A stretch of DNA of 64,000 bases from assembly GCF_018131105.1 (NCBI RefSeq), contig NZ_JAFCJI010000002.1:124001-188000 (forward strand), in the 5' to 3' direction. Source of the DNA: Bradyrhizobium manausense. GTDB taxonomy: Bacteria; Pseudomonadota; Alphaproteobacteria; Rhizobiales; Xanthobacteraceae. Made by a program: the position numbers and the translations under genes. Of the stretch, positions 28,563 to 57,844 are shown in pieces. Under the pieces are notes generated by a model. That model was not told the DNA's origin. It saw nothing but the letters and a program-made list of their open reading frames with translations, and searched no databases. Each line of letters begins with the position of its first letter. Position 1 is the first letter of the stretch.

Positions 28563-29126
28563 TCAGCGGCGTCGCGTCGATGCATCAGTCGCAAAGCCGT
28601 AGACCAGCGCCAGTCGGTCGAGGCATTCGCGAAATCGCCGGGCAAAATAGTCGTTCCAGCGCTGCGTGCGTACGGCACGTCGCTGCCCGATCTGATCCAT
28701 GGTCAGGCCGAGCACCAGCACGTCATGCACCAGTGCCGCACCGTCGGTGCCAAGCTCGCGCTCGACCCGGTTCAGCCGCAGCACCGCCTGGCGCTGGCTC
28801 TCGATCACGGGCTCGCGGGAGCGCGCCCCGTCGACATGCTCCCGGGTTGGATCCATGGCCTGGGGTCCCCGCTCCGCCCTCTCCCAGTCATTCTGATAGG
28901 CGCGGCCGCCCCGATACTGCGCCTCGTCGATCTGATGATGCGCGTGCAGCCGACCGAGCGGATCATGGCGGATCGATCGCATGGCGACGATCTTCTCGTC
29001 CAGATCGAGCGCGAGCGGATTATCGACCTCGACTTCGGCCAATTCCGCGTTGAGCGGCTGGTCACGCGATCGCCGGTCGTGAGGGCCGGTCAATTTGTAG
29101 GACATGTTGCGTCTGGCACGTGCCAC
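28563..29126 (-). CDS. DUF6456-like protein
   Basis: 187 residues. The C-terminal half reads GGRAYQNDWERAERG, DPTREHVDGA, LNRVERELGTDGAALVHDVL and FRECLDRLALVYGFA, the pattern I associate with DUF6456, an alphaproteobacterial family often next to regulators. The start is GTG with CAAGGAG seven bases upstream; the ATG seven codons later has none. It is 49 bases downstream of the GcrA-like gene in the same direction and probably co-transcribed with it under the S24 operator. Confidence 0.65.
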   Translation of the reverse strand: MARARRNMSYKLTGPHDRRSRDQPLNAELAEVEVDNPLALDLDEKIVAMRSIRHDPLGRLHAHHQIDEAQYRGGRAYQNDWERAERGPQAMDPTREHVDGARSREPVIESQRQAVLRLNRVERELGTDGAALVHDVLVLGLTMDQIGQRRAVRTQRWNDYFARRFRECLDRLALVYGFATDASTRRR

Positions 29127-29175
29127 TCGAAAACTCCTTGCGAATTGACGTAAGAAGGGCTGCTGCTCCCACCGG

Positions 29176-29709
29176 TCAGGCAGCGAAGACCAGCCTCAAT
29201 ACGACGGCACCGGCCGTGCGATCGGACGCGGTGCCGGGACCGCGGGTCAGCTTCGCATGCGGCGCGCAATAGCTTGACCCGTGCAGACGCGGATGACCGC
29301 AAAAGCTGATCGCCTCTCCTTCCTTGTCGCCGCCATAGGGATAGCGACAATCGCCTCGCTCGAGCTCGATCAGCGGGACCAGGCGCGGCCGGACGCCCAC
29401 GCAACGCAGTTTGAGCAGACGGGCCGGTTTCAGTGCCGATGGCGGCGGCAGGTTCAGGCCGGGGATTGCCACACGAGGCGGCGAGAGCGTACTGGGTTCG
29501 CCCGGCAAGGACGGCACGATCGATGGACTCGCCAGACGTTCAAGCGCGCCGAGCCGGAGCCGCTTGGCGCGACCGGCCACTGCATTGCGTGTGTAAACCG
29601 TTCCAAACCTTGCGTTAATCCGTTTTCCGATCTCCGCATATGACAGTCCTTTGAAAAAATAGTCGCGAAGCGCGTCGGAATGCTCCGACGGCCAGTGGCC
29701 CGGTTCCAT
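29176..29709 (-). CDS. GcrA-family cell-cycle regulator paralog
   Basis: 177 residues. An N-terminal helix-turn-helix (HWPSEHSDALRDYFFKGLSY, then AEIGKR...TRNAVAGRAKRL) matches the GcrA DNA-binding domain, though the helix connection is longer than usual. The C-terminus holds a Cys/His cluster (GDCRYPYGG, SFCGHPR, SSYCAPHAKL) as in GcrA. GcrA joins sigma-70 RNA polymerase at methylated GANTC promoters. The low match to the core GcrA suggests an accessory paralog. The promoter overlaps an S24-type operator, so it is probably repressed by the divergent gene. Confidence 0.75.
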   Translation of the reverse strand: MEPGHWPSEHSDALRDYFFKGLSYAEIGKRINARFGTVYTRNAVAGRAKRLRLGALERLASPSIVPSLPGEPSTLSPPRVAIPGLNLPPPSALKPARLLKLRCVGVRPRLVPLIELERGDCRYPYGGDKEGEAISFCGHPRLHGSSYCAPHAKLTRGPGTASDRTAGAVVLRLVFAA

Positions 29710-29758
29710 GCTGCTGTCCTGTGGTGCGCCCCGATTCCACGATCCGGAGGCGAGACAC

Positions 29759-29787
29759 ACATTCCGTTATTCCGAACACTAAGTCAA
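29759..29787 (-). promoter_or_regulatory. promoter of the GcrA-like gene with S24-type operator
   Basis: Read leftward: TTGACT, 17 bases, GAATGT. The operator TTCCG-TTATT-CCGAA (29762-29776) overlaps the spacer and -10. One half-site differs at one base from the consensus TTCCG-N5-CGGAA seen at the other sites. The -10 is weak. Confidence 0.5.
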
Positions 29788-29809
29788 GCCAAAATTCTGA
29801 TATTCATAA

Positions 29810-29838
29810 TTGCATTAATTCCGAATTTCGGATTACAA
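29810..29838 (+). promoter_or_regulatory. promoter of the S24 repressor gene with operator
   Basis: TTGCAT, 17 bases, TTACAA. TTCCG-AATTT-CGGAT (29819-29833) fills the second part of the spacer. Its core TCCGAA-T-TTCGGA is a perfect 6-bp dyad. The position relative to the -35 is the same as at 30511-30539, as expected for autorepression. Confidence 0.6.
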
Positions 29839-29871
29839 CGGACGAAGCCGGGGGCAATCGAGGGAATCACC

Positions 29872-30480
29872 ATGTTGGACGTTGCGATGATCGAGCGGGG
29901 CCTGGAAAAGACAGGCAAGAGCAAGGGCGGACTGGCCGCTGCGATGGGCGTACGCCCGGGCGCGGTTTCGGAAATCCTCGGTGGCGAACGGCTGGTCAAG
30001 GCCTCGGAAATCATTCCGATCATGGAATATCTTGAGCTCAATCTCGCGCCGATCATGGGCCGCGTCGGCGCCGGCGCGGTGATCGAGCCGGATTTCGAGC
30101 AAGTTCCGCCGGAGGGGCTCGGCGACATCGCGCTGCCCTTCCCGATCATGGAAGAAACCGTCGCCTTCGAGATCGTCGGCGATTCGATGCTGCCCAAATA
30201 TGAAAGCGGGGACGTGATTGTGGTCTACAAGGACCAGCGTCACCCGCTGTCCAGTTTCTACGGCGAAGAGGCCGTGGTCCGGCTCAAGACCGGCGAACGC
30301 TATCTGAAGACCATCGAGCGAGGCAAATCTCCCTCCGTCGTCAACCTCAACAGCTTCAACGCGAAGCCGATCGTCGGCGTCAAGCTCGACTGGGTCGGAG
30401 AGATCTGCCTCTCCATGCCGAAGGGTCAGCTCGAGCGGCTGCGCGCCAAGTCGGCCCGGCCCCGCAAGAAAGGGCGATAG
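29872..30480 (+). CDS. XRE/S24 (LexA/cI-type) transcriptional repressor
   Basis: 202 residues. An N-terminal helix-turn-helix (SKGGLAAAMGVRPGAVSEIL) is joined to an S24 peptidase domain. The catalytic Ser is Ser105 (GDSMLPKYESGD) and the Lys is Lys146 (GERYLKTI). The Ala-Gly pair at 67-68 (GRVGAGAV) is the expected self-cleavage site. Such repressors dimerise on operators and can lose repression by RecA-stimulated autocleavage. The ATG has GAGGGAAT upstream. Operators lie before it, before the divergent gcrA-like gene and after its stop. Confidence 0.87.
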   Translation: MLDVAMIERGLEKTGKSKGGLAAAMGVRPGAVSEILGGERLVKASEIIPIMEYLELNLAPIMGRVGAGAVIEPDFEQVPPEGLGDIALPFPIMEETVAFEIVGDSMLPKYESGDVIVVYKDQRHPLSSFYGEEAVVRLKTGERYLKTIERGKSPSVVNLNSFNAKPIVGVKLDWVGEICLSMPKGQLERLRAKSARPRKKGR

Positions 30481-30488
30481 GCGCCGAT

Positions 30489-30503
30489 TTCCGATTTTTG
30501 GAA
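30489..30503. promoter_or_regulatory. S24-type operator, upstream member of a pair
   Basis: TTCCG-ATTTT-TGGAA, nine of ten half-site bases matching TTCCG-N5-CGGAA. It lies just after the repressor stop and 31 bp, about three helical turns, before the next operator, allowing cooperative binding on one face. Confidence 0.55.
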
Positions 30504-30510
30504 ATCCACC

Positions 30511-30539
30511 TTGACTTGATTCCGTTTTTCGGAAATAAT
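30511..30539 (+). promoter_or_regulatory. promoter of the 91-aa gene with S24-type operator
   Basis: TTGACT, 17 bases, AATAAT. A perfect operator, TTCCG-TTTTT-CGGAA (30520-30534), covers the spacer and reaches the -10. It is the best match to consensus at all three promoters of the cassette. Confidence 0.65.
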
Positions 30540-30581
30540 CTGCCGCGCGTCGGGTTACCGGGCGCGCGGCAGGATCGTTTG

Positions 30582-30857
30582 ATGCAGTATTTCGTCGTGA
30601 TGATCGACTATGGGCGACGCGGTCGCGAGGCCATCGTCGACCCCGAGATCACAAGGCGCGAAGTTATCTCCCGCGTCAGTTCCGGCGAATACCAGAACAT
30701 CTCGTTCATCCATGAAATCGCGGAGAACTCCGTCGAGGACGTGACCGAAGCCATTTTGGCTGAGGCCGTCCTCCCCGAAATCCCGCCTGAGGACGTTGAC
30801 CTTCAGGCGATCCGACATGATCACGCTCGCGACATGCGCAAGCACGAGAAAGCGTGA
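30582..30857 (+). CDS. unknown 91-aa protein under S24-type control
   Basis: MQYFVVMIDYGRRGREAIVD, then PEITRREVISRVSSGEYQNI and SFIHEIAENSVEDVTEAILA, ending in a His/Lys-rich tail. It appears soluble with an alpha/beta start. Unrecognised. The start is supported by AGGAT upstream and a short leader from a strong promoter that carries a perfect operator, so it is probably kept off until the repressor is inactivated. Confidence 0.65.
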   Translation: MQYFVVMIDYGRRGREAIVDPEITRREVISRVSSGEYQNISFIHEIAENSVEDVTEAILAEAVLPEIPPEDVDLQAIRHDHARDMRKHEKA

Positions 30858-57787: not shown

Positions 57788-57802
57788 TTCCGAATTTCGG
57801 TA
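57788..57802. promoter_or_regulatory. S24-operator-like string at the repeat end
   Basis: TTCCG-AATTT-CGGTA: the first 13 bases are identical to the operator of the S24 repressor at 29819. It may be chance, or the repeat may carry sites for that repressor. Confidence 0.25.
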
Positions 57803-57844
57803 AAGCGGAATGTTTTTGCCTGGAGAGGTTGACAGACCCCGCAG

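Follow-up and report, generated by a model that had tools for sequence, protein, structure and literature searches.

What does a LexA/CI-type repressor do in a bacterial genome when its operators govern a GcrA-family protein, a probable relative of GafZ, an activator of gene transfer agents, and a small phage-type protein? The question is raised by a 64,000-nucleotide stretch of Bradyrhizobium manausense DNA (hereafter, the window; RefSeq assembly GCF_018131105.1, contig NZ_JAFCJI010000002.1, positions 124,001 to 188,000), which contains a four-gene cassette encoding an S24 repressor, a divergent two-gene operon for GcrA-like and DUF6456-like proteins, and a 91-amino acid (aa) protein. An earlier note on this DNA had left two options for the cassette, a domesticated phage switch or a cell-cycle checkpoint. 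Comparison of Bradyrhizobium genomes and phages indicates that the finding is real, but that it concerns regulatory DNA taken over from a phage and not a novel checkpoint of the cell cycle. Specifically, the cassette probably descends from the regulatory region of an ancient temperate phage and persists as an orphaned switch of the CI/RogA type over an activator operon. If so, a lysogeny-type switch has outlived its phage: nearly every sampled member of Bradyrhizobium, a major nitrogen-fixing genus, keeps the repressor, the operators and the activator pair, and most of the sampled genomes have lost the particle genes. This opens to test the general question of what keeps a phage switch under selection once the phage is gone.

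Operators and proteins of the cassette

Candidate operators of a single type are found at three promoters of the cassette (Table 1). The earlier note had listed four TTCCG-N5-CGGAA-like sites in this region, and all four are present where it placed them (1, 1, 1 and 0 mismatches). As it also described, one such site lies between the -35 and -10 elements of each of the three promoters (O1, O3 and O5). O1 falls within the spacer of the gcrA-like promoter, overlapping the -10 element, and the placement of O3 and O5 is identical: both sites begin 9 bases beyond the initial base of a -35 element that is followed by a 17-base spacer. The fifth, degenerate site, O2, has a counterpart in the far clade, where the position 33 bp from O1 is clearly operator-like (TTCTGATAATCGGAA and variants) and lies in the repressor promoter. 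Window-wide, sites with ≤2 mismatches are not enriched overall (55 seen vs 44.9 expected). The clustering of the better sites is unusual: 4 of the 11 window sites with ≤1 mismatch lie within 773 bp, and no 773-bp span contained more than three such sites in any of 60 windows simulated with a second-order Markov model. Symmetric covariation of the operator half-sites, looked for across loci, was not supported.

Table 1. Genes, predicted promoters and candidate operators of the cassette (window coordinates)
Feature	Position	Strand	Basis and remarks
187-aa DUF6456-like protein, second gene of the predicted repressed operon	28563..29126	-	Probable remote relative of GafZ and of the C-terminal part of GafA
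177-aa GcrA-family protein, first gene of the predicted repressed operon	29176..29709	-	Pfam GcrA 8e-39
gcrA-like operon promoter, TTGACT-N17-GAATGT	29759..29787	-	Read from sequence; -35 TTGACT at 29787-29782, -10 GAATGT at 29764-29759; conserved in 110 loci
Candidate operator O1, TTCCGTTATTCCGAA	29762..29776		1 mismatch to TTCCG-N5-CGGAA; ≤2 mismatches in 110/110 loci
Probable degenerate operator O2, TTCTGATATTCATAA	29795..29809		33 bp from O1; nearly invariant in the near clade
Repressor promoter, TTGCAT-N17-TTACAA	29810..29838	+	Read from sequence; -35 TTGCAT from 29810, -10 TTACAA from 29833; block nearly invariant in 88 near-clade loci
Candidate operator O3, TTCCGAATTTCGGAT	29819..29833		1 mismatch; between repressor -35 and -10
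202-aa S24 (LexA/CI-type) repressor	29872..30480	+	Pfam Peptidase_S24 1.2e-10; Ser105, Lys146, Ala67-Gly68
Candidate operator O4, TTCCGATTTTTGGAA	30489..30503		1 mismatch; 31 bp upstream of O5
91-aa gene promoter, TTGACT-N17-AATAAT	30511..30539	+	Read from sequence; -35 TTGACT from 30511, -10 AATAAT from 30534; conserved in near and far clades
Candidate operator O5, TTCCGTTTTTCGGAA	30520..30534		Perfect, 0 mismatches; in the 91-aa gene promoter
91-aa protein of a phage early-gene family	30582..30857	+	Homologue in the early operon of ppBeUSDA76-2; further phage contigs

The C-terminal S24 domain of the repressor is readily recognized (PF00717, 41.5 bits, cut-off 23.3); a comparison of the protein with PDB sequences yielded no match. 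The Ser105/Lys146 dyad and the Ala-Gly pair, which the earlier note had described as intact, are indeed present, and Ser105, Lys146, Ala67 and Gly68 are all invariant in the 137/137 orthologues as well as in the phage relatives. The DUF6456-like gene is co-directional with the gcrA-like gene and starts 49 bp downstream of it. The DUF6456 annotation is that of GafA homologues, which in Hyphomicrobiales are similar in their C-terminal portion, corresponding to GafZ (PMC9638019, PMC9765227). The 187-aa protein scores below the cut-off of the Pfam DUF6456 model (16.8 bits vs 26.3) and matches a Rhizobiales DUF6456 profile over 139 columns in hhalign (96.5% probability, E 7.7e-10), which makes it, by profile comparison, a probable remote relative of GafZ. 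In the AlphaFold model of this protein, the terminal helices weakly resemble sigma region 4 (Foldseek, E about 1), a likeness that is only suggestive. For the 91-aa protein, profile searches found no family match, and its predicted alpha/beta fold gave no confident fold match.

The remaining protein contains a clear Pfam GcrA domain (133.9 bits, cut-off 26.9) and retains the TRNAV and FCG...YCA motifs but fails the GcrA equivalog model by a wide margin (36.1 bits, cut-off 280). Two better-scoring GcrA homologues are encoded elsewhere in the genome, the best-scoring one at C1:3565245 and a second chromosomal one at C1:1706144-1706602, so that the cassette protein appears, from these scores, to be a divergent third GcrA-family member. 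These observations bear directly on the possibility, raised in the earlier note, that the repressor governs a GcrA-type regulator that alters host cell-cycle transcription, in a cell-cycle or DNA-damage checkpoint. Such a role would be compatible with the intact DNA-binding and C-terminal motifs of the GcrA-like protein and with the invariant self-cleaving-type residues of the repressor, and the retention of the cassette in genomes that have lost the particle genes (see below) leaves room for a host function. However, the protein falls short of the equivalog cut-off, stronger homologues exist in the same genome, the operon partner and the 91-aa protein belong to phage families, and the GcrA-like protein is the one that evolves fastest within the cassette. 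With a divergent GcrA and phage proteins as partners, the checkpoint proposal found no support, and we consider it very improbable.

Conservation and phage ancestry of the cassette

The cassette is a nearly universal feature of the genus. An orthologue of the S24 repressor is present in 141 of the 146 Bradyrhizobium genomes (in two of these, the gene is split), and among the other five, three have only a distant S24 match and two have none. The order and orientation of the four genes are retained in nearly all of the approximately 110 loci compared, the listed exceptions being a few loci cut by a contig end; in the near clade, the flanks of the cassette are the same as well. The synteny that the earlier note had proposed to check is, therefore, intact. 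So are the operators, whose conservation in orthologous loci it had named among its tests: counted at ≤2 mismatches in 91 near-clade and 19 far-clade loci, O1 is present in 91 and 19, O3 in 91 and 18, O4 in 64 and 15, and O5 in 83 and 15, respectively. In the locus alignments, the operator-promoter blocks are near-invariant, with variable stretches between them.

All four cassette proteins are under purifying selection. In near-clade comparisons, the ratio of non-synonymous to synonymous substitution rates (dN/dS) averages 0.029 for the repressor, 0.115 for the GafZ-like protein, 0.116 for the 91-aa protein and 0.26 for the GcrA-like protein; constraint is strongest, by a wide margin, on the repressor, and the GcrA-like protein evolves fastest. 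Selection on all four proteins argues for a function of the whole module.

Homology points to phages as the source of this module. The 187-aa and 91-aa proteins have homologues in the Bradyrhizobium phage ppBeUSDA76-2, the former (48%) encoded immediately ahead of the terminase gene and the latter (62% identity over 60 aa) in an early ERF/YqaJ/NinB recombination operon. The viral contigs L212 and L213 likewise carry a GafZ-like gene just ahead of the packaging genes, and members of the 91-aa family are encoded on several viral contigs, two of which also contain a GcrA-like stretch. Outside Bradyrhizobium but within the same bacterial family, homologues of the 187-aa protein are rare and, where examined, lie beside phage-like genes. 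A prophage-like locus from another genus (L179) combines an S24 repressor with 52% identity and a GafZ-like gene with 50% identity to those of the cassette, and contains a TTCTG-N5-CAGAA palindrome (TTCTGTGTTTCAGAA) upstream of the repressor start. Judging from these relationships, the parts of the cassette are phage-derived, and the domesticated phage switch of the earlier note gains support from both the homology and the conservation.

The same phage relatives suggest another explanation, namely, superinfection immunity, whereby the S24 repressor would silence incoming related temperate phages via their operators, with the other three genes being passengers. Related phages with S24 repressors approximately 30-52% identical to that of the cassette do exist, the L179 palindrome is similar to the cassette operators, and constraint on the repressor greatly exceeds that on the other three proteins. 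Passengers, however, would not be expected to stay intact and under purifying selection as the other three genes do (dN/dS 0.115-0.26), nor would operators be conserved at their promoters; furthermore, a search of ppBeUSDA76-2, the phage with the closest capsid, turned up no palindrome resembling the operators. Immunity as the principal role of the cassette thus seems unlikely.

A linked cluster of particle genes

A search of the B. manausense genome for the terminase produced a match at C2:122393-122815, approximately 1.2 kb before the window start. Here, in C2:121925-122887, codons 1 to ~274 of the terminase large subunit are fused in frame to a C-terminal piece of 50 residues that comes from a separate gene of a particle cluster; an acetyltransferase follows. 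Read in this way, C2:121925-122887 is the scar, 1.1 kb before window base 1, of a deleted SU10-type cluster, with the deletion spanning from terminase codon ~274 to another gene of the cluster. A protein search with the terminase yielded matches in 122 of the 146 genomes, via the terminase itself, an N-terminal stub or the fused C-terminal piece, some of these matches resting on the fused 50 residues alone. The terminase, or a stub comprising its first ~105 codons, is located 8-76 kb from the cassette in at least 50 genomes, on the strand opposite to that of the repressor. In many species (L326-L345), deletions spare terminase codons 1 to ~105-118, and their right ends vary.

The complete counterpart of this scar is found in a minority of the genomes. 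In G092, G135, G075 and G108, the terminase gene opens a cluster of ~28-35 kb at the cassette-linked site that encodes SU10-type portal, capsid, adaptor, tail and collar proteins and adjoins the same host genes where the fetched region reached those. The proteins of the linked cluster are closely similar to those of ppBeUSDA76-2 (terminase 73%, capsid 70-72%, portal 71-78% identity). Altogether, the capsid protein is encoded in 27 of the 146 genomes, with linkage to the cassette seen in eight of them and perhaps extending to three further drafts; accordingly, the SU10-like (podovirus) capsid-portal-tail-lysis cluster is present at the locus in ~8-11 genomes. The capsid genes evolve under constraint (dN/dS mostly 0.05-0.13). 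By pairwise identity, the terminase, the capsid and the repressor yield much the same grouping of genomes (G092 with G135, G098 with G065, and G108 with G140), with somewhat uneven capsid identities for G098, and this broad concordance favours mostly vertical inheritance with some recombination. Among the 20 proteins scanned in G135 (the cluster and a TerS-like gene), there was no integrase or replication protein. Between the capsid and portal genes of the same genome (L283:8260-10861), there are two related genes, one with a terminal WHH nuclease (colicin-DNase-like) domain, which look like cargo.

The loss of the structural genes could also mean that the cassette belongs to a slowly decaying prophage that has no current function, with the conservation stemming from the toxicity of repressor loss. 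Most genomes have, indeed, lost the cluster or retain it in truncated form, and the deletions have many distinct right ends. Under this scenario, however, inactivation of the activators would relieve the harm caused by repressor loss, and yet all four genes stay open and under selection in both the near and the far clades. Decay is, therefore, quite unlikely to account for the cassette.

We favour a scheme in which an ancestor of Bradyrhizobium captured a phage control region and kept it as an autonomous switch. The operators, their overlap with the promoters, the conservation, the selection, the phage homology and the linkage are all apparent from sequence; repression, the trigger of derepression, activation of the cluster, antitermination and the present-day function are predictions of the scheme. 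The S24 repressor would bind the four to five palindromic sites and shut off its own promoter, the divergent operon for the GcrA-like and GafZ-like proteins, and the 91-aa gene. Removal of the repressor, plausibly, by self-cleavage at Ala67-Gly68, would open the switch. The freed GcrA-like protein, acting as a sigma70 cofactor, would then aid RNA polymerase at the promoters it targets, with the GafZ-like protein perhaps allowing the polymerase to read through the late gene cluster by antitermination. The target, in the past and, in some species, at present, would be the SU10-like capsid, portal, tail and lysis genes, which occupy a fixed position on the chromosome tens of kilobases from the cassette. 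In the B. manausense genome, where this cluster has been deleted except for the scar described above, the switch would be either orphaned or serving another target.

Several observations weigh against this scheme. The cluster is retained in ~5-8% and the cassette in ~97% of the 146 genomes; because the cassette far outlives the structural genes, the cluster alone cannot account for its retention. A motif tying the late cluster to the GcrA-like or the GafZ-like protein did not emerge, no clear conserved promoter block is apparent ahead of the terminase, and host genes separate the cassette from the cluster, whose origin from one element together with the cassette is deduced from the linkage and the shared phage relatives. 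Additionally, the putative N-terminal helix-turn-helix (HTH) domain of the repressor scores below the cut-offs (HTH_31, 24 bits, cut-off 27; HTH_3, 18.2 bits, cut-off 23). The persistence of the cassette might be explained by another target, by phage immunity or by costly derepression.

A bolder extension, which we regard as doubtful, is that Bradyrhizobium possesses a genus-ancestral, podovirus-type (SU10-like) gene transfer agent (GTA), unrelated to RcGTA, with the particle genes at a fixed site, that is switched remotely by the S24/GcrA-like/GafZ-like cassette. The broadly vertical divergence of the cluster, its mostly low capsid dN/dS and the lack of an integrase among the scanned G135 proteins would be in keeping with a GTA; the cluster is absent from this and most other genomes. 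Short-tailed particles with even host-genome coverage have been described in B. japonicum S06B (PMC10127595). If it exists, an SU10-like GTA could explain these host-DNA-containing particles, which would fit a podovirus-type GTA; contamination with host DNA is possible as well because the particle yields were low. The cluster, then, is a concrete candidate for host-DNA-carrying particles in soybean bradyrhizobia, and the link of the cassette to a new type of GTA is plausible but unproven.

Relation to known switches and the search for further targets

In the lambda/434-type CI switch and in LexA regulation, operators lie between the -35 and -10 elements of divergent promoters, and the repressors are autoregulated and have a Ser-Lys self-cleavage architecture. 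The cassette resembles these systems in operator placement, predicted autoregulation and the Ser-Lys architecture. It differs in that no Cro counterpart was identified in the cassette, no excisable phage is attached, and the genes predicted to be repressed encode a sigma70 cofactor and a relative of activators/antiterminators.

A closer parallel is the RogA-GafYZ system of Caulobacter, in which a GTA is controlled by a repressor with S24 organization acting on two activators, one of them a DUF6456 protein, and the late particle genes are regulated indirectly, through gafYZ (PMC9632790, PMC11150451). RogA combines HTH and S24 organization, acts on the promoter of an operon of two activator genes, the second of the GafZ type, and does not directly target the particle genes, which lie elsewhere (PMC9632790, PMC11150451, PMC13236601). 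The cassette matches this layout with an S24 repressor that has a putative HTH, a candidate site in the activator promoter, a probably GafZ-related second gene and distant particle genes predicted to escape direct repression; the overlap of O1 with the gcrA-like/gafZ-like operon promoter, in 110/110 loci, is a RogA-type feature. In contrast, the first activator here belongs to the GcrA family, whereas in Caulobacter it is the DnaA-domain-IV-like GafY; the cassette repressor has an intact S24 dyad, while the key catalytic residues are reportedly missing from RogA; the cassette has an additional predicted target, the 91-aa phage gene; and the cassette-linked particle genes are those of an SU10-like podovirus rather than RcGTA-like, with neither kind found in this genome. 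The suggestion of the earlier note that such a switch had not been described thus holds for the GcrA-like protein in the place of GafY and for the intact dyad but not for the arrangement itself, which is known from RogA-GafYZ (PMC9632790, PMC11150451). The logic of RogA-GafYZ is, apparently, extended to another phage type, with GafY replaced by a GcrA-family protein and the self-cleavage residues kept.

Two other systems share individual components with the cassette. As in Rhodobacter GafA and the split gafA of Hyphomicrobiales (PMC9638019), the second gene of a two-gene operon encodes a protein of the DUF6456 C-terminal type or, in the cassette, its probable remote relative; however, the canonical Rhizobiales DUF6456 gene gives no match above the cut-off in the B. 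manausense genome. The phage ppBeUSDA76-2 (OP596614, PMC10127595) shares the packaging and head proteins of the cluster, the GafZ-like gene upstream of the terminase and the 91-aa family, but it is an entire prophage that is produced spontaneously, carries integrase and recombination genes and yielded no homologue of the cassette S24 repressor.

Further targets, which the earlier note had proposed to seek genome-wide, did not emerge: exact and degenerate searches for the operator found about as many strong sites as the reversed control pattern and no convincing target beyond the cassette, with only one extra, repeat-like site. The lack of strong operators elsewhere fits indirect control of the late cluster via the activators, as in RogA-gafYZ. 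Two other readings were discarded. RcGTA was ruled out in this genome, which has no canonical DUF6456 gene and yielded no DUF2460 in a search that was positive in the Caulobacter control; the RcGTA portal (PF04860) was not found there either. Control of the cassette by LexA was rejected because the alphaproteobacterial LexA box GTTC-N7-GTTC is absent from the three cassette promoters and shows no enrichment.

The one extra site in the genome, at C5:28618-28632 (L001:4619-4633), is a perfect palindrome, TTCCGATTTTCGGAA, located between lepA and a transporter gene. The stretch next to it, GCTCCGTCGGGCAAAACA, is likewise found beside a site of another genome: in G021 (L210), a sequence similar to this site adjoins the same GTCGGGCAAAACA stretch. 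Given this repeat-like neighbouring stretch in two genomes, the palindrome is, probably, part of a dispersed repeat and was rejected as an additional repressor target. Within the window, two one-mismatch operator-like sites that overlap each other are located at 57788-57810. Operator-like sequences are far more numerous in G053 and G020 (L192-L208, L211), with 60-73 forward hits vs 1-2 for the reversed control; those read in the deep-branching G053 are TTCTG-N5-CAGAA-type palindromes inside dispersed intergenic repeats, which might titrate the repressor or be coincidental.

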